IMG/VR virus record: IMGVR_UViG_3300042534_000339
Coordinates: 1-27,193 of that record
Reading direction: 5' to 3' (one strand)
Source: a virus
Length of the DNA stretch: 27,193 nt
A program made the position numbers and the translations under genes. Shown here in pieces: positions 1,608-27,193 of this stretch. Position 1 is the first letter of the stretch. Each line of letters starts with the position of its first letter. A model generated the notes under the pieces. The model was not told the DNA's origin, searched no databases, and saw nothing but the letters and a program-made list of their open reading frames with translations.

Positions 1608-1918
1608 TTTTTTATTTTACTTCGCTTCGCTACGTAAAATAAAAAAGCGGGCAGCTTTGCTGCCCTAAACAGATGGTTGAGCAGCTTCGCTGCAGCGGCT
1701 TACGCCGCATCCAGAGTGTTGATTGCGGCTTACGCCGCAGCTGGGGTCAAGTGAATGTTGATTACGGCTTCGCCGTGTCCAGCAGGCTTCGCCTGTGAAT
1801 AGTAATTTATCTAGAATGTTGAGCAGCTTCGCTGCAATTGTTCACTCATTTCATTCGTTCACGATGCTGCGCATCACAAAACAAATGAAATTGATTGCAG
1901 CTGGCTACGCCAAGCTGC
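1608..1918. repeat. Array of ten small hairpins, mostly with TTC/TTAC loops
   Basis: Ten short perfect or near-perfect inverted repeats follow each other: 1608-1646 (13-bp stem), 1649-1665, 1681-1693, 1695-1708, 1724-1739, 1764-1776, 1783-1795, 1823-1835, 1863-1875 and 1897-1918. Most have 5-7 bp GC-rich stems and loops TTC, TTAC, TTT, TGC or TAC. GCAGCTTCGCTGC and GCGGCTTACGCCGC each occur twice. Four hairpins or hairpin pairs are preceded by TGTTGA or TGGTTGA (1674, 1717, 1756, 1817), and a 19-base copy recurs at 1676-1694 and 1818-1836. The stretch is non-coding. The first hairpin has A/T tracts on both sides and could terminate transcription in either direction; the rest could be small palindromic mobile repeats, protein-binding sites or RNA stability elements. 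Confidence 0.8.
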
Positions 1919-3456: not shown

Positions 3457-4065
3457 ATGAATCCCAAAGAACACGCAATTCTTCTCCTGTCCCAAGGCAT
3501 TCCCACTTCCCAAGTGGCCGCGGCCTGTGGCGTTAGTGACTCATATGTCAGCCAACTCAAGGCTGATCCAGAAGTTCAGACTCAGATTGCAGAAAAGCAA
3601 GCTGCGCATAGCATTGCAGATATGCAGTTTGATGATGATCTGGAAACTGCTGAAAACATGGCGCTGCAAAAGATCAAGAGCAATATTGCTTTTGCAAACA
3701 TGGGCCAGGCAATTGCGGCATTTCGCATTCTCAATACTGCACGGCGCAGAGCTGATCCAGTTGTCACACCTGACGCCGCAGTAAGTGTCACAGTTAACCT
3801 TACGTTGCCGCAATCTGCAGTGCCAAGGTATGTGACCAATGCAAACAATGAGATTATTGAAGTTGAAGGACAAACTATGTTGAGTGCCACGGCCAAAAAT
3901 TTGGATCAGATCCTGGCTGAGAAACATGGAAAAGTTTCAACGCTCCCACAAACTACTGCTGCTGAGCGTGCGGCAAACATTTTGGATAAACTCTCGACGC
4001 CAAAATCTTTCCTCCAGCGTGCGGCGCCACGATCTCCTATTCCCTTGTCTGCGGATATGCTCTGA
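3457..4065 (+). CDS. Probable terminase small subunit (HTH protein)
   Basis: The 202-aa product begins with a helix-turn-helix pattern at about residues 8-36 (GIPTSQVAAACGVSDSYVSQ, then LKADPEV), the usual N-terminal DNA-binding fold of small terminase subunits and related phage regulators. A charged helical middle (about 40-95) could drive oligomerisation, and the tail is Pro/Ser/Ala-rich. Small terminases recognise the packaging site and hand DNA to the large subunit. AAGGAG lies 12 bases ahead of the ATG and the gene follows the previous stop by 18 bases. It is separated from the large terminase by about 2.3 kb of candidate RNA and spike genes, which is unusual. A plain transcription regulator is the main alternative. 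Confidence 0.6.
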   Translation: MNPKEHAILLLSQGIPTSQVAAACGVSDSYVSQLKADPEVQTQIAEKQAAHSIADMQFDDDLETAENMALQKIKSNIAFANMGQAIAAFRILNTARRRADPVVTPDAAVSVTVNLTLPQSAVPRYVTNANNEIIEVEGQTMLSATAKNLDQILAEKHGKVSTLPQTTAAERAANILDKLSTPKSFLQRAAPRSPIPLSADML

Positions 4066-4296
4066 TTCCTGGGGACGGGCTAGGAACTATATAGCGCAGC
4101 GGAACGTCAGGCCGTGGCCGCGTGGCGAAGCAACGAGATGACGCGGGGTCCCCTGTCAAGGGTGAAAGGAGCAAATACCGCAGGGCGCAGCCCGAGGATG
4201 ATTTGCGACTGGAAAGCGCAGCGTCCCTTGATTGGGGTTAGTCATCGAAGTAAGCTAGCCATGGCGGCTGCGCGCCTGAAGTGGAGCGGAGCGTAG
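4066..4296 (+). ncRNA. Candidate structured non-coding RNA
   Basis: This stretch has a base composition unlike the AT-richer bases after it and contains many exact complementary pairs: TTCCT/AGGAA (4066-4070/4082-4086), GGGACG/CGTCCC (4072-4077/4222-4227), GGCTAG/CTAGCC (4078-4083/4255-4260), CCGCGT/ACGCGG (4118-4123/4141-4146), TCAAGGG/CCCTTGA (4156-4162/4225-4231) and GCAAAT/ATTTGC (4171-4176/4201-4206). The last pair encloses GGGC/GCCC (4183-4186/4190-4193). Some pairings compete or cross, so pseudoknots or alternative folds are possible. AGCGCAGCG is repeated at 4093 and 4215. The only frame over it (4114-4296) has no good ribosome binding site and an unconvincing product. No tRNA, tmRNA, RNase P or group I intron core was recognised. 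Its family is unknown to me. Confidence 0.5.
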
Positions 4297-4370
4297 TAGA
4301 TTCTCAATTCCTTTACTCATATCTCACAATCTATACTATTTTTAACTTCTCCTTTGTAGAGGAAATAAAC

Positions 4371-4604
4371 ATGAGCAACGTCAGTGATCCCGCAAAGTAC
4401 GGTGCAGCCGTAACTCCTTCTGATTCTGTCAATCTTGTGGCACCTACGCGTGGCTTGCATATTGGCAGTGGAGGAAACATCTCAGTAGAAATGGCAAATG
4501 GCACAGTGGTAATTCCTAACGTACAAGTAGGTATTCAACCTATTCAAGTCACGCGCGTGAATGCTACAGGTACAACTGCAGGAAGCATTGTAGCTCTGTG
4601 GTAA
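4371..4604 (+). CDS. Spike-base protein (Rcc01079-like)
   Basis: This 77-aa protein reads AVTPSDSVNLVAPTRGLHIG, then SGGNISVEMANGTVVIPNV, and ends RVNATGTTAGSIVALW. From memory this order of motifs matches the small spike-base proteins named after Rcc01079 of the Rhodobacter gene transfer agent and found in many tailed phages, where they anchor head spikes. An upstream in-frame start at 4281 is rejected because AGAGGAAA lies just ahead of the ATG at 4371 and homology-like sequence begins there. Its neighbour downstream is a probable head-spike/fibre protein, a fitting partner. The 75 bases ahead of it, after the candidate RNA, are AT- and pyrimidine-rich and non-coding. Confidence 0.8.
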   Translation: MSNVSDPAKYGAAVTPSDSVNLVAPTRGLHIGSGGNISVEMANGTVVIPNVQVGIQPIQVTRVNATGTTAGSIVALW

Positions 4605-6335: not shown

Positions 6336-7808
6336 ATGTCTGGCCAAACTTCAGAACTCAATGCAAGTTCTCAGGAAGCAGCGGAGCTCTCTCGTAGAGA
6401 TCTAAACTTCCTGGGGATGCTCGCAGCGCCGGAGGAGTTCACATACTCTTTTCCGGCGTTTTATATTGCCCTCTTTTCTCTCCTCACAGCATTCAAAAGC
6501 AAGCTTGAACGCTACGCTATTGGCATTCCCCGAGGTTTTGCAAAGACTACTTTTGTCAAACTCCTGTGCCTTTGGTACATTCTTTTCTCTCACAAGCAAT
6601 TCATTCTCATCGTAGGTGCCAGCGAAGATTTGGCAGTCAACACGCTTGCTGACATCTGCGATCTGCTGGGTGCAGCAAATATCAGAAAACTTTTTGGCAA
6701 CTGGCAAGCCCAAGTAGAGGTTGACACGCAATCTCTGAAAGTCTTCTATTTCCGCGGCCGCAACATCATCCTCCGGGCCATTGGTGCCGGCACAGCAGTC
6801 CGTGGTATCAACAGAAAGAACAAGCGTCCAGATGTCATTATTATGGATGACGTCCAAAAACGTGAAACATCTGAGAACAAAGAACTCAGTGACCAGCTTC
6901 TCAAGTGGATTCTTGGCACGCTGATGAAGGCGCGGTCCAATGATGGATGTACTTACATCTACGTTGGAAACATGTATCCACAAAATTGTATTCTTGAAAA
7001 ACTCAAGCACAATACTCAGTGGACTTCGTTCATCGTTGGTGGCATTCTTGCAAACGGTACGTCTCTCTGGGAAGAACTTCGCCCTATTGAAGAACTTCTT
7101 TCCGAATATCAGTCTGACTCAGAGCTCGGGCACGCAGACATTTTTATCTCAGAAATTCTGAATTCCACAGACATTGCTGCAGCCAGCGGCATTGATATCT
7201 CCAAAATCCCATCTCTGCCCTCTTATTATGACGGGTCTGAGCCAGAAGGCTCATTCATTCTTATCGATCCATCAGCTGGAAAGAAGACATCAGATGATTG
7301 TACAATCTCACACTACTCAGTATGTGACGGCAAGCCAATATTTGATGACCTTTATTACGGCACTTTTTCCCCATTAGAAACTATTAAGGCTGCAATTCTT
7401 CTTGGCCTAGAACGAAACACCAGACTTATAGCCGTAGAAGGCGTTGCGTATCAATCAACTCTTCTTTATTGGTTTCAATATTATTGCGAACAAGAAGGTA
7501 TCACAGGCTTTGAATTCGTAGAGCTTAGCCCTAAAGGGCAAGCTAAAAATAATCGTATTAAACGCGGTCTTCTCCGCTTGATTTCAGGGGAAATCTATCT
7601 ACACCCCAATGTGCGTAGCAAAGTTCTAGCCCAGATCATGGATTGGAACCCCCTGAAGATCAACAATGTCGACGATATAATTGATCCCATCGGCTATGTG
7701 GAGGAAGTCATGCGTGAGTACCCACATCTTGTGGTAAAAAATATCTTCGACACTGAAGATTACAGTGCAAGTGCATCACACTCTGGCACTCTGGCGCTGC
7801 CCTTCTAA
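6336..7808 (+). CDS. terL: Terminase large subunit
   Basis: This 490-aa packaging motor has an N-terminal ATPase and a C-terminal nuclease. The Walker A-type loop is PRGFAKTT (about 65-72). Walker B is DVIIMDD (166-172). The RNase H-like nuclease region begins FILIDPSAGKKTSDD (D311), continues with LIAVEGVAYQ (E368) and ends near NNVDDIIDPIGY (D446/D447/D450), giving the expected acidic metal-binding set. It translocates DNA into the prohead through the portal encoded next and cuts it at the end. Length is normal for the family. The ATG at 6336 has only an A-rich leader, so initiation may be weak or coupled; the next in-frame Met (residue 28) would remove little known structure. Confidence 0.95.
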   Translation: MSGQTSELNASSQEAAELSRRDLNFLGMLAAPEEFTYSFPAFYIALFSLLTAFKSKLERYAIGIPRGFAKTTFVKLLCLWYILFSHKQFILIVGASEDLAVNTLADICDLLGAANIRKLFGNWQAQVEVDTQSLKVFYFRGRNIILRAIGAGTAVRGINRKNKRPDVIIMDDVQKRETSENKELSDQLLKWILGTLMKARSNDGCTYIYVGNMYPQNCILEKLKHNTQWTSFIVGGILANGTSLWEELRPIEELLSEYQSDSELGHADIFISEILNSTDIAAASGIDISKIPSLPSYYDGSEPEGSFILIDPSAGKKTSDDCTISHYSVCDGKPIFDDLYYGTFSPLETIKAAILLGLERNTRLIAVEGVAYQSTLLYWFQYYCEQEGITGFEFVELSPKGQAKNNRIKRGLLRLISGEIYLHPNVRSKVLAQIMDWNPLKINNVDDIIDPIGYVEEVMREYPHLVVKNIFDTEDYSASASHSGTLALPF

Positions 7809-10921: not shown

Positions 10922-12127
10922 ATGGCTGTTGGACTTCTTTCTTCCGCAAATGCTCCGCAGAATCTGAATGCGATCAGCTTTGCACAAGCTATCACTCGGC
11001 TGATGCCGAATGGTACTGCTCCGCTGTTTGGCCTGACTTCTCTTCTCAAGGATGAGACTGCTGCCAACATCGAGCATGGATATTTCTCCAAGACGATGAT
11101 CTTTCCGTTTGTGAAGATCAACAATGGTGCGGGATACGCTGCCGGCGATACCACGTTCACTGTGGACACCTACACCAACGTGGTTCCTGGTGATCTGATT
11201 CGTGTGGACCGCACGGGTGAAGTGATGATGGTGAACACCACGCCGTCGGCCACTTCTATCACTGTGACCCGTGCAGTGGGCACTGTGGCTGCTGCGGCGC
11301 TGCTGGACGATGATGATCTCTTCACCATTGGCAATGCCTTTGAGGAAGGTTCTGTTCGTCCGTCGGCTGTGGCAATCATTGCTGATCGCTACGTCAACAA
11401 CACGCAGATCTTCCGCAATTCTTGGGCTGTTACCAAGACTGCCGCTGCGATTCCGCAAATTGCCGGTGCTGGCTATGTCAGCGAAAGCAAGCAAGATTGC
11501 GCTGCGTTCCACGCAATGGCCATTGAGAAGGCGCTGTTCTTCGGTCAGAAGTTCATGGGCACGAAGAATGGTCAGCCGCTGCACACGATGGAAGGCATCA
11601 TTGCTCGCGTGACTGCCTCTGCTCCTGGCAACATCACGACGCTTGGTGCTACCACGAACTGGACGCAGCTGGAAGCAGCTCTGGACAAGACGTTGGAAAC
11701 CGTCACTGATCCGAAGGGTGGCAACATTCGCACGATGTTTGTTGGGGGTACGGCTCGCCGTGTTCTGCACAACATTGCACGTCTGAATGCCACTTATCAG
11801 ATCCAGACGATGGAAACTTCGTGGGGGCTGCAACTCGACATGCTGCGCACTCCGCGTGGTACGTTTGAGTTGATCGAGCATCCGCTGTTCAATGCTTATG
11901 GTGCAGCTTCCACCTGGGCAAAGATGGCTGTGATCGGTGATCTCAATGCTTTCTCGATGGCTTATCTGCGGAAGACCAGCGATGCTGCGTACAACGCCAG
12001 TGGTGCCCTCGTGGACAATGGCATTGATGCGGAAGGCGGCACGCTGACCACTGAGCTGACTTGCACGATCAAGAACCCGGCTGCGTTCGGCATTCTGTAC
12101 AACTTCACTGCGGCTGCTGCAGGCTAA
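10922..12127 (+). CDS. Major capsid protein, SU10-like HK97 fold (probable)
   Basis: The 401-aa protein has the layout of an HK97-fold coat protein. An N-terminal arm leads to a beta-rich insertion (about 65-130, TTFTVDTYTNVVPGDLIRVD). Then comes NTQIFRNSWAVTKTAAAIPQ and an E-loop/A-domain region rich in Ala and Gly. The NTQIFR...VTKT pattern and the EKALFFGQKF helix recall the coat proteins of SU10-type podoviruses. Codon choice differs from its neighbours (many CTG, AAG, and C-ending Thr/Asn codons), as expected for the most abundant virion protein. AAGGAACTGA just ahead of the ATG serves as ribosome binding site. Confidence 0.88.
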   Translation: MAVGLLSSANAPQNLNAISFAQAITRLMPNGTAPLFGLTSLLKDETAANIEHGYFSKTMIFPFVKINNGAGYAAGDTTFTVDTYTNVVPGDLIRVDRTGEVMMVNTTPSATSITVTRAVGTVAAAALLDDDDLFTIGNAFEEGSVRPSAVAIIADRYVNNTQIFRNSWAVTKTAAAIPQIAGAGYVSESKQDCAAFHAMAIEKALFFGQKFMGTKNGQPLHTMEGIIARVTASAPGNITTLGATTNWTQLEAALDKTLETVTDPKGGNIRTMFVGGTARRVLHNIARLNATYQIQTMETSWGLQLDMLRTPRGTFELIEHPLFNAYGAASTWAKMAVIGDLNAFSMAYLRKTSDAAYNASGALVDNGIDAEGGTLTTELTCTIKNPAAFGILYNFTAAAAG

Positions 12128-23212: not shown

Positions 23213-26200
23213 ATGGCAACGATGCTCCCTGAGTACCACCCCGCAGTTCTGGCTTCTGAAACCACAGATTACCAGGCAAATACGCTGGCGTCTATCACCA
23301 ATGCTCTTACCTACGGAGCCGGCAGCGCGCTGGCCTCAGGCGCTCTGAGCATCTATAATACTGTTGTAGACTACGCCGGTGGCGAAGGTGTCAATATTGA
23401 AAATGCCGTTCGTACTTACGGTGGCAACAACATGGGAGATTACTACAGGGACAATAAAGATACTATTGACCTTGTTGGCTTTGTTGGCACATCTCTGATT
23501 CCTGGAAGCATTGGCATCAAGGGCCTGAGTCTGGCACGAACTGGTTACCTTGGCGGCAACGTTGCAAAGTACACGGCGTTGCCTGTTGTGAGAAAACAAG
23601 AGTACACACGCCAAGCTCTGCAAGAAGTTGCTGCGGATGGTGGAGTGCTCAAGTCTATTTTGTCTTCAAACCAGCGCAAGATTATTGGTTGGGAAATGGC
23701 TGACCAAGCCATGACTGCTGCAGCATTTGAGCTTGGCGTTGCTGCGCTGATGAATGACAGTCCGATTTTTGATGATGCCGGTGTTACTGAGTTCGCTTGG
23801 AATGCGGCGCTTGGCCTGGGCTTTGGCACAACTGTCGGCACTGTCTTCAACTCTTTCGTCTCCCGTGGCCTGCTGCGCTCTGCTGAACGTGAAGTTCAAG
23901 CTCAGATGCGCACTGTTGACATTCTGGAAGATAAGGCAAAGATGAGTCTAGTGGCAGGCACTGATAGCTTGCTGCTTGCTGAAAGTATTGTCTCTCTTCC
24001 CAAGGCTTTTGACAATCTCAACTTTGAGTACACCACTGTCAACGAGGCAGGCAAGCGTGTAAAGACTTCTATTGAACTCGAGACTGCAAACAAGTTGCAG
24101 ATTCGGAAAGAGGAAGTTGAAAGGCTTGGCCAGGATAAACTCAAACTCAAGTTCAATCAGCTGGCCCAAGGAAATGAGAATGTTGGGCAGTCATTTTATG
24201 AAGCTCTGAAGGGCAGGCTTGATATTCTGCGTGAGATTGGCACGCCCCCTGCGGAGCAAGTGCAAGCCATTCATGGCTATTTGAATCTGCTGGAAAGCGT
24301 GAGGCCAGTGGATGCTGAGCGCCTGGCGCTGGAAGCACGTAAATTTTATATCGTTATCAAGCCTGAAGGAATGCCAAAGGAAGATAGAACGCTGGCAAAT
24401 ATGTTTTCTCTCAAGCGGCTGAAAGGTCCAGCAGGCAACGAGATCACTAGCAAGCAAGCATATTATCTTTCTGAAGGTGTGACTAAAGAGGATCTGAACA
24501 TTGCAGATTGGCTGCAAGTATCTGGAAGAGAGACTAACGTAAAGAGATACTTTGCACAGAATCCTGATGTTGATGGTGTGTTTCTGCCTAACGGTGCAAT
24601 TTCTATCAATCGGAACTCTAAGAAAATTCTCAAGTTCAAAGAGGATCCTGTCAGATTCTCAATGCTTGCAGACTTGGAAAGTCTTAGCTTGTCTCCTGAG
24701 GCTGTGCTGGCATTTGGTGACATTGTTGAAAAGGGCAAACTTGTCTTTGCACCGGATGCCATTTATGGCGGTGGCAAAAAGTTTGTTCAAGAGGCTTCGA
24801 GGAAAGCTGGCATTTTTTCTGATCCTCTGGAATCCAGTGCAAGGTTTGCATGGGCCAGCAAGCTGACGTCTTCAGAAGTTCAAAAGATCATTGGCACAAA
24901 TCTTGATGCCAGTGACTTGCCGTTGTTGGACAGGCTGATTGAGTTGATTGATGAAAAGGTTATTTCTGAAAAGTTTTTGACGGGAGTTACGTTCAAGACT
25001 GCACAGGGAGATCTGCGCTACGCGGATCTGGTGAATGTTAGAAATCTTGCAACTCAAGAGCGCATTGCAATTCTTGCTGAACAGCTTGGAGAGGCTGGTA
25101 CGAAGGGCCGAGTTCCCACTACGCAAGAGTTGGCCATTCATATGAACTCAGAGCGGCGCTGGGTTGAAGATGTTATCTCTCGGGGCTTTGCACCAGACAC
25201 TGCAGTCAATGCAGTAGGACGAGTCTACAAGACTGACCGCGCTCTTGTGCCTCGCACTGTGCAGCTTCAGTGGAACTTTTCTCCAGTTTCATCTGGCCGT
25301 GGAAATTATCTTCTGCCTGAAGAGGCATACAATCTCAACATGGGGCCAAATCATTTGGTCACCAAGGAGATGAGCAGGCAGTATCAGTTGGAGGTGGCGA
25401 GAAAGATTAACATTAGCGCCGCAGACTCTGTGCTTGAGCAGGATGCTGTCCTCATTCCCCATGAGACGGATTTTCTAGAGATTGGAAACAAGCTCAGCAG
25501 GACTGCATCTATTGAGGGTGCTGGCGCTAGTTTGCTGGGTGCATCGAATGCAGGATACGGAGAGAAAGCTAAACTTTTTGTGCAAGAGCTTGGCAAGAAT
25601 GTGGCGTTGCTTTCTCAAAAGTTCCGGGACAGGACTATTGAGACACTCTCTCCCAATGTCAATGCACTGCGTGCAAACCAAGCAGCCTCTGCTGAGCTTG
25701 GCATCCTGACCACGGCTCTGAGAAAGTCTGAACATAAGTATGTCTTTGCTCCGTTTGACACCGGTGCAGGAGACAATGTTCTGATTTCTGAAGCTGTGAG
25801 CAAGATTCTGGGGGACCCCAAGTTTACTGGCAGCCTGGATGAAGCTGTGCAGTATGCAAGTATCACCCAGCCCAGCCGCAGCCCACACAGGTTTGAAATT
25901 CAAAATCAGGAAGTCGTAGACTTTTTGGTTACCAGCACACGGATCAATGATCTGAGGCAGCAGAAGTTTACTACTCTTTACAATGCGGCAGGAGTCACAA
26001 AAAATCACACGGTTGGCCATGTCTATGCTCCGCCTATCAACACTGCCTTGTATCCTTACCATGCGTTTGTGAGAACAAAAGAAAAGCTGGGCTTGGGCAG
26101 TGACGTGTCCATGATTGTTGCAAGGTCTGATGCGCAGCTGCGAAAGTTGGCGTCAGAAGTTGGCGATGATTATGATGTCTTCTACACGACTGACACTGAT

Positions 26201-27193
26201 AACTATTTCAAGGCCAAGGGAAAATATGAATATCAGAACACTCTGAACGAGACTGCTGTGAACAGCGATCTTGCTCGGCGCGGGGTGCTGGCTGACTTCT
26301 TCCCAGAGACTAGGCTTGAAAATATTATGAATGACTGGCTTGGTTGGCACGCCAAGCAGGAAGAGAAACTCGTTCGCAACGCTGTTCAGGTGAAGAATAG
26401 AGAGTTCTTCTCTGAAATGCAGTTTCTCAGCGATCAGTACCGTCGCGTTCCTGAGGCCCGTGTTGGCGGGATTGGCGCGAGGTTGAAGTCTAAAATCTCT
26501 GATCCATTCGGAGATTATATCAAGACTGCACTCAACATCTCCAAGCAACAGGAGTTTCCACTTCTTGACTCGCTCAATGAGTTCATTGACGGACTCAGTA
26601 TTCGCGCTGGCGAAGCAATGCAGAATGCTTTTGGGCAAGCAGAGAAAGGTATTGTGTCTTGGCAGGATGCAAACAAAGTTGCTCAACGCTACGGCTTGCC
26701 GCAACCTTATCAGAACATTGAAACTTATATTGAAGCAAACAAGTCTGTCCCAGTCAATGTTGTCAGAGAGTTCTTCCAAAAGGCCAATGCAGTTCTTGCA
26801 ACTACAACGCTGCGCTTTGACTTCTTCAACAGCCTAATCAACATTATTTCTACCCCCATCATGCTGGGCACTGAGATGGCCAGTGTGAGAAGGATGATGT
26901 CGCAGACTCCTGAGCTTGCAGGAAAGTTGGCAGAGCTGACAAGTATCCGGGTTCCTGGACAAAACTATTCTGTCCCATCAACTACCAAACTCATTGCCGA
27001 GTCTGTCACCAACTTCTTCGGTGCAAACAAAGATGCACTGATGCAGCGGTACAAGGACATTGGTGCGATCAAGGAGATCAGCAAGATCTATCATGAGATG
27101 ATGGATGATCTTGCGTATCGGCCGAACATTGCACCAAAGGAGTGGGTTGATAAGCTCAAGCGCGGCACAGAGAAGGCGGCGACTATCACAGGG
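23213..27193 (+). CDS. Giant internal virion protein, 3' end cut by window
   Basis: From the ATG at 23213 the frame stays open to the last base, giving at least 1327 codons without a stop. GAGGA lies ahead of the start. The N-terminal part is Ala/Gly-rich and mildly hydrophobic (LASITNALTYGAGSALASGA; FVGTSLIPGSIGIKGLSLAR), as in membrane-penetrating ejection proteins. The rest is long, charged and helical, without any enzymatic motif I recognise. Size and position at the end of the ejection-protein cluster match the large internal virion or polyvalent proteins of podoviruses, which may carry an enzymatic domain further on. The end and any C-terminal domain lie outside this window. Confidence 0.75.
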   Translation, partial: MATMLPEYHPAVLASETTDYQANTLASITNALTYGAGSALASGALSIYNTVVDYAGGEGVNIENAVRTYGGNNMGDYYRDNKDTIDLVGFVGTSLIPGSIGIKGLSLARTGYLGGNVAKYTALPVVRKQEYTRQALQEVAADGGVLKSILSSNQRKIIGWEMADQAMTAAAFELGVAALMNDSPIFDDAGVTEFAWNAALGLGFGTTVGTVFNSFVSRGLLRSAEREVQAQMRTVDILEDKAKMSLVAGTDSLLLAESIVSLPKAFDNLNFEYTTVNEAGKRVKTSIELETANKLQIRKEEVERLGQDKLKLKFNQLAQGNENVGQSFYEALKGRLDILREIGTPPAEQVQAIHGYLNLLESVRPVDAERLALEARKFYIVIKPEGMPKEDRTLANMFSLKRLKGPAGNEITSKQAYYLSEGVTKEDLNIADWLQVSGRETNVKRYFAQNPDVDGVFLPNGAISINRNSKKILKFKEDPVRFSMLADLESLSLSPEAVLAFGDIVEKGKLVFAPDAIYGGGKKFVQEASRKAGIFSDPLESSARFAWASKLTSSEVQKIIGTNLDASDLPLLDRLIELIDEKVISEKFLTGVTFKTAQGDLRYADLVNVRNLATQERIAILAEQLGEAGTKGRVPTTQELAIHMNSERRWVEDVISRGFAPDTAVNAVGRVYKTDRALVPRTVQLQWNFSPVSSGRGNYLLPEEAYNLNMGPNHLVTKEMSRQYQLEVARKINISAADSVLEQDAVLIPHETDFLEIGNKLSRTASIEGAGASLLGASNAGYGEKAKLFVQELGKNVALLSQKFRDRTIETLSPNVNALRANQAASAELGILTTALRKSEHKYVFAPFDTGAGDNVLISEAVSKILGDPKFTGSLDEAVQYASITQPSRSPHRFEIQNQEVVDFLVTSTRINDLRQQKFTTLYNAAGVTKNHTVGHVYAPPINTALYPYHAFVRTKEKLGLGSDVSMIVARSDAQLRKLASEVGDDYDVFYTTDTDNYFKAKGKYEYQNTLNETAVNSDLARRGVLADFFPETRLENIMNDWLGWHAKQEEKLVRNAVQVKNREFFSEMQFLSDQYRRVPEARVGGIGARLKSKISDPFGDYIKTALNISKQQEFPLLDSLNEFIDGLSIRAGEAMQNAFGQAEKGIVSWQDANKVAQRYGLPQPYQNIETYIEANKSVPVNVVREFFQKANAVLATTTLRFDFFNSLINIISTPIMLGTEMASVRRMMSQTPELAGKLAELTSIRVPGQNYSVPSTTKLIAESVTNFFGANKDALMQRYKDIGAIKEISKIYHEMMDDLAYRPNIAPKEWVDKLKRGTEKAATITG

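Follow-up and report, generated by a model that had tools for sequence, protein, structure and literature searches.

The gap between the small terminase and tail-fibre-type genes

The window, by which we mean the whole 27,193-nt stretch of DNA analysed (IMGVR_UViG_3300042534_000339), is a fragment of a podovirus genome in which the small terminase (TerS) gene (3457-4065, + strand; HTH_23, terminase small subunit) is followed downstream by the genes for TerL (6336-7808), the portal and a SU10-type major capsid protein (10922-12127). TerL and the capsid protein were ~35-39% identical to those of Pseudomonas phages PaP2/119X, Polaromonas phage Tiera, Aeromonas phage P5 and EBPR podovirus 3. Within this packed structural operon, the interval from the TerS stop (4065) to the next real start (4371), which opens a small tail-fibre-type protein gene (4371-4604, + strand; phrog_12296), held no credible gene, bearing out an earlier note that had singled out 4066-4296 as gene-free. 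This stretch has ~60% GC, compared with roughly 42-51% in its surroundings, and neither a sigma-70-like promoter nor a U-tract terminator was seen beside the structured element that we describe in it. ARAGORN made no call in the window, in agreement with the note, which had recognised no tRNA or tmRNA in the stretch. A coding role for a 60-aa frame (4114-4296) was rejected, since homologues do not keep the frame open; the note had named codon-level conservation of this overlapping frame as evidence against a structured RNA.

Further features of the window were recorded. A second gene-free stretch (1606-1930, - strand) carries a row of small hairpins whose loops are of the GCGAAGC/GCGTAGC type and which are set apart by TCAAC-like spacers (fold z -5.4); it is not a copy of the element below, whose model gave only a weak match there. 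The C(GNA)G mini-hairpin motif, GCGNAGC, occurs 47 times in positions 1-27193, compared with 19.8 expected from shuffles, and clusters at 1624-1910 (- strand) and 4094-4292. At the other end, a frame that stays open for at least 1327 aa (23213-27193) runs past the window end; it had no significant Pfam or PHROGs family and is likely a large internal virion protein of this phage group, related to ~1610-aa proteins of two other contigs (G048, G049).

A bulged rod with covarying helices

A stretch of roughly 200 nt in this gap is, with very little doubt, a real and previously undescribed structured RNA element. The earlier note had based a similar proposal on at least six exact complementary segment pairs of 5 bp or more; 20 such pairs are present, and dinucleotide shuffles give 19.8 ± 4.1. 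Pairs of at least 6 bp were in excess at 4066-4296 (12 vs 4.8 ± 2.2, a count reached by 2 of 100 shuffles), and folding was unusual on the + strand, with z of -2.9 for 4066-4320 and -4.6 for 4094-4298 (- strand, -0.9 and -3.1). The conclusion that the stretch is structured was therefore right on weak grounds, since its 5-bp pairs are at chance level while its fold is not ordinary.

Stronger evidence came from covariation over homologous phage loci, an analysis that the note had suggested. TerL relatives in IMG/VR were the first source of such loci, and a covariance model (R1) was built from eight sequences, the window and seven of the copies in TerL relatives. The consensus structure is a single unbranched bulged rod of 47 pairs, about 130-220 nt long across the family. 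Changes on both sides with pairing kept were found at 28 of the 47 pairs among 13 copies, at 30 of 47 among 19 copies, and again at 28 of 47 in a set made of the window and six copies absent from a later model, R3. In this held-out set 86.4% of cells were paired, compared with 68.2% in shuffled and 22-38% in slid controls; over the alignments the figures were 86-87%, 67-73% and 22-39%, respectively. Alignments fitted to a covariance model lean towards its structure, and the slid and shuffled controls, together with single-sequence folds, served as guards: several distant copies reached the same rod by energy alone, and the copy in L032 folded into the same rod with an energy no better than that of its shuffles. 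Covariation over homologues, copies left out of the model included, thus strongly supports the structured RNA of the earlier note. The crossing pairs that the note had read as possible pseudoknots found no support, because the covariation fits one nested rod. G-U made up 7.1% of pair cells and A-C 1.7% (~4:1), so the selected, folding molecule is a single one of the two strands.

In the window the rod occupies about 4092-4299 on the + strand (model match 4090-4310; 196, 176 and 167 bits with R1, R2 and R3; z -4.6); it starts inside the extent given previously, 4066-4296, and reaches slightly beyond the right edge of that extent. Its outer helices, which are helices 1-5 of the counted structure, join a 5' arm at 4094-4124 to a 3' arm at about 4257-4295, with 77-100% of cells paired and many two-sided changes. 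Inside them lies an internal loop whose 5' side (GCGAAGC-AACGA, 4125-4136) is conserved, AGC and the C of CGA being nearly invariant in 19 copies while the flanking helices vary freely, and whose 3' side (GAAGTAAGCTAGCC, 4247-4260) is the most conserved stretch of the element, with GTAAGCT nearly invariant in the same number of copies. Across the family this loop is asymmetric and conserved, with 5' GCGNAGC..CGA facing 3' GAAGUAAGCUAG. The clearest helix is H3, in which GATGAC (4137-4142) pairs with GTCATC (4241-4246) and every one of the six pairs shows two-sided changes among homologues (GATGAC/GTCATC, AACTGC/GCAGTT, GGCCGC/GCGGCC, ACCCGT/ACGGGT). A purine-rich linker, GCGGGGT (4143-4149), G-rich in most copies and unpaired in the consensus, leads from H3 to the apical helix H4, formed by CCCC-U-GUCAAGGG (4150-4162) and CCCUUGAU-U-GGGG (4225-4237); 86-95% of its cells are paired, and its internal UCAA/UUGA is nearly invariant. 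The tip (4163-4224) is variable in length and sequence among copies and contains small C(GNA)G hairpins, with GCGCAGC at 4185 and 4216. All these parts lie on the + strand. To judge by the sequences, AGC..C on the 5' side, GAAGUAAGCU on the 3' side and UCAA/UUGA, which hardly change amid a varying background, look like a recognition site, and the conserved internal loop is probably the site of a protein.

Distribution and genomic sites of the copies

Covariance models grown from the window locus found more than 20 diverged copies in related podoviruses, represented by over a dozen phage fragments besides the window; the carriers are distantly related to Pseudomonas phage PaP2 and Polaromonas phage Tiera. 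As in the window, the TerS junction holds a copy in L001-L003, L009, L010, L012 and L013, and related copies followed the portal gene in L022 and L025. R1 also recovered copies outside its training set (L032, L026, L027, L021, L096 and L267; E 5e-18 to 1e-6). Whole-record searches with R2 and R3 gave four copies in each of two ~45-kb contigs (G048, G049), one in G021 and one in L401/G082, and a last scan added three in G098 and one in G106. Across ~1.7 Mb of pattern-fetched phage loci, significant matches were confined to this phage group. Most matches from pattern scans of viral contigs for the core motifs were due to chance, and the covariance model eliminated them; the single pattern match in a bacterial genome, inside a uvrB-like gene, was likewise judged to be chance. 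Blastn of the region showed no similar DNA among cultured phages or plasmids, R2 and R3 found no copy in PaP2, Tiera or EBPR podovirus 3, and several relatives with large contigs had no detectable copy. A cultured distant relative, Aeromonas phage P5 (OM519319.1; L292 33983-34139), tentatively carries one: the candidate fills the gap between P5_0032 and P5_0033, has a rod fold with z -5.97 and contains GUCAAGG/CCUUUAC, like the copies of L022 and L032, with a marginal R2 match (E 0.012-0.018) and no R3 match.

All copies are intergenic and were found in one podovirus group only, many of them 0-14 nt from the next start codon. They lie after TerS (window, L001, L009, L013, G021), before TerL (L021, L026, L027, G048, G049), between TerL and portal (L032, L401), after the portal (L022, L025), before a p201 homologue (L096, G048, G049, G098), at the convergent early/late junction on the early strand (G048, G049, G098; the L267 copy is also at the early/late junction) and inside the early region, antisense to the neighbouring genes (G048, G049, G098). 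At seven of the eight kinds of site, counting the tentative one of P5, the rod is sense to the upstream genes, the early-region site being the exception. Three genomes (G048, G049, G098) hold three to four copies each and share both sites and strands; most other phages have one copy per record. With the tip excluded, the copies that a genome carries at its different sites are ~51-69% alike, and some are closer to their site-mates in other genomes; this degree of likeness indicates that the copies are old. In G048, the early genes end, ahead of the junction rod, with one (27498-27845; L319 7498-7845) that encodes an Acb2/Tad1 hairpin domain of the anti-CBASS/anti-Thoeris type.

Some close relatives have the same flanking genes and no rod (L006 and L016, compared with the window and L001; L007, compared with L013). 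At the empty TerS junctions of L006 (430-560) and L007 (3935-4200), small unrelated inverted repeats replace it and a GCG(T/C)AG-like sequence is kept at the 3' border, a pattern that would fit either deletion of the rod or a target site for insertion. Because sites differ among phages and some close relatives lack the rod at the same junction, no single junction needs it.

Relation to known RNAs and possible functions

The comparison with Rfam 15 that the earlier note had advised, run with gathering cut-offs and also more loosely (up to E≤10 with the region and several of its homologues, up to E≤1 with additional copies), gave no family match for the region or its homologues, with HEARO, pRNA, 6S, GOLLD and ROOL included, and a search of the open-access literature turned up no account of an element like this one in the phage group. 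The note had proposed a HEARO/OMEGA-type RNA, and these systems do share with the rod a structured RNA at variable places. No Rfam match appeared, however, even at E≤10 (region and several homologues), the TnpB-type domain PF07282 was absent from six records in which controls worked, and the rod differs in having no guide-like end and in its old copies at fixed sites; a search for the IscB RRXRR domain was empty, as was its control. A packaging RNA like that of phi29, also suggested there, resembles the rod as a structured phage RNA, and the window copy does lie in the packaging module. The pRNA of phi29 is a three-way junction with interlocking loops, whereas the element here, which matched no pRNA family, is a rod without such a junction, is present in up to four copies per genome, one of them antisense, and belongs to another phage group. 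6S RNA is rod-like too, about 200 nt long, with internal loops and a large central bubble; the present element has no large central bubble and is multi-copy and intergenic in phages.

A close analogy in layout is with the RNase III processing sites of phage T7, which are intercistronic hairpins of about 60 nt: in both cases several hairpins with internal loops are dispersed between cistrons, and architecture is shared more than sequence. The rod differs in its length (about 130-220 nt), strictly conserved loop sequence, variable tip and one antisense site, and its cleavage is a proposal. The T7-type trait of a sense intercistronic hairpin in more than one copy per genome holds at seven kinds of site (one tentative) and not at the early-region site, with several copies in three genomes and a single one in most.

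We infer functions in cis, in trans, in mobility or as single-stranded DNA for a rod that most likely works as RNA. Our preferred reading, offered tentatively and at somewhat less than an even chance, is an intercistronic cis element of the mRNA, cotranscribed with its neighbours and bound or processed by a protein through the internal loop. The rod would be copied as part of the late mRNA, neither a promoter nor a terminator having been seen that would serve it alone; a protein that binds RNA, such as RNase III of the host, might recognise the helices and internal loop and cut or coat the message there, and the cistrons on either side could then be separated, stabilised or translated at different levels. 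By analogy, this would be the logic of the T7 sites on a longer, more specific RNA scaffold. A role in late mRNA is preferred because no promoter or terminator adjoins the rod, most sites are sense and the fit between cistrons is tight. That three diverged phages each keep three or four copies, with sites and strands that correspond, is also what position-bound elements would lead one to expect. Against it, the early-region copies of G048, G049 and G098 are antisense, an orientation left unexplained by a simple site of mRNA processing, the fixed loop sequence exceeds the known needs of RNase III, and, as noted, no single junction needs the rod. The 17 early proteins of G048 that were scanned included no phage-encoded RNase III or dsRNA-binding protein.

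Those antisense copies would suit a discrete phage RNA acting in trans, made from its own gene or released from mRNA and binding a host or phage protein, for example to lure away a nuclease or defence protein of the host, to regulate host transcription or to serve structurally in the head or in packaging. We keep this alternative as possible, though rather unlikely, because sites change and antisense copies exist. Most phages have one copy per record whose place and strand vary, as for a gene able to sit anywhere; the conserved loop resembles a protein site, and copies prefer the TerS-TerL-portal neighbourhood, this location being the sole ground for a possible link to packaging. Yet one trans-acting gene would do where three genomes hold three to four diverged copies at fixed sites, no promoter or terminator was seen beside the window copy, and no copy is detectable in several relatives represented by large contigs. 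The fuller form of this idea, in which a phage has as many as four paralogous genes for a new class of non-coding RNA that Rfam lacks, with a structural or decoy role (part of the packaging motor, or decoy for a host nuclease or defence protein), is a slightly more doubtful proposition.

Variable placement also bears on mobility, which the earlier note had raised. The site does vary between phages (six or more sites within a single phage group), close relatives that share the flanking genes have an empty site (L006 and L016; L007 vs L013), and GCGTAG-like direct repeats stand at the ends of some copies; a clean target-site duplication and a mobility gene were not found. A non-autonomous element that passes from one phage genome to another and whose RNA or hairpin serves its own movement, HEARO/OMEGA-like or IS200-like, is distinctly unlikely given the HEARO and TnpB searches above, the divergence of same-genome copies (only about 51-69% alike, some nearer site-mates elsewhere), which speaks for old rather than recently moving copies, and their absence from plasmids and the bacterial-genome pattern scan. 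That the rod acts as a single-stranded DNA hairpin, a signal for replication, recombination or packaging that is read once the strand becomes exposed, appears quite improbable. C(GNA)G mini-hairpins are unusually stable in DNA, and the tip and base are rich in this motif, itself enriched across the window (47 vs 19.8 expected); the strand relative to genes is not fixed either. Such a hairpin fits poorly with G-U kept as pairs (G-T is possible in single-stranded DNA, and weaker), with an unpaired conserved loop showing GA/GA features typical of RNA and with the flush sense-strand fit between cistrons at most sites. A compositional artefact, the hairpins that any GC-rich spacer forms, could account for 5-bp pairs at chance frequency; it can hardly account for the held-out covariation, for model matches with E 1e-5 to 1e-18 in sequences outside model building or for the restriction of significant matches in ~1.7 Mb of pattern-matched loci to this phage group.

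Large structured phage RNAs are few and mostly orphan. The present element combines strong held-out covariation and a sharply conserved, probable protein site with fixed multi-copy sites in some phages and changes of site in others. Were it a trans-acting RNA, it would represent a new phage RNA class; if the preferred cis module is true, it would show how the expression of terminase, portal and capsid is tuned from one operon.
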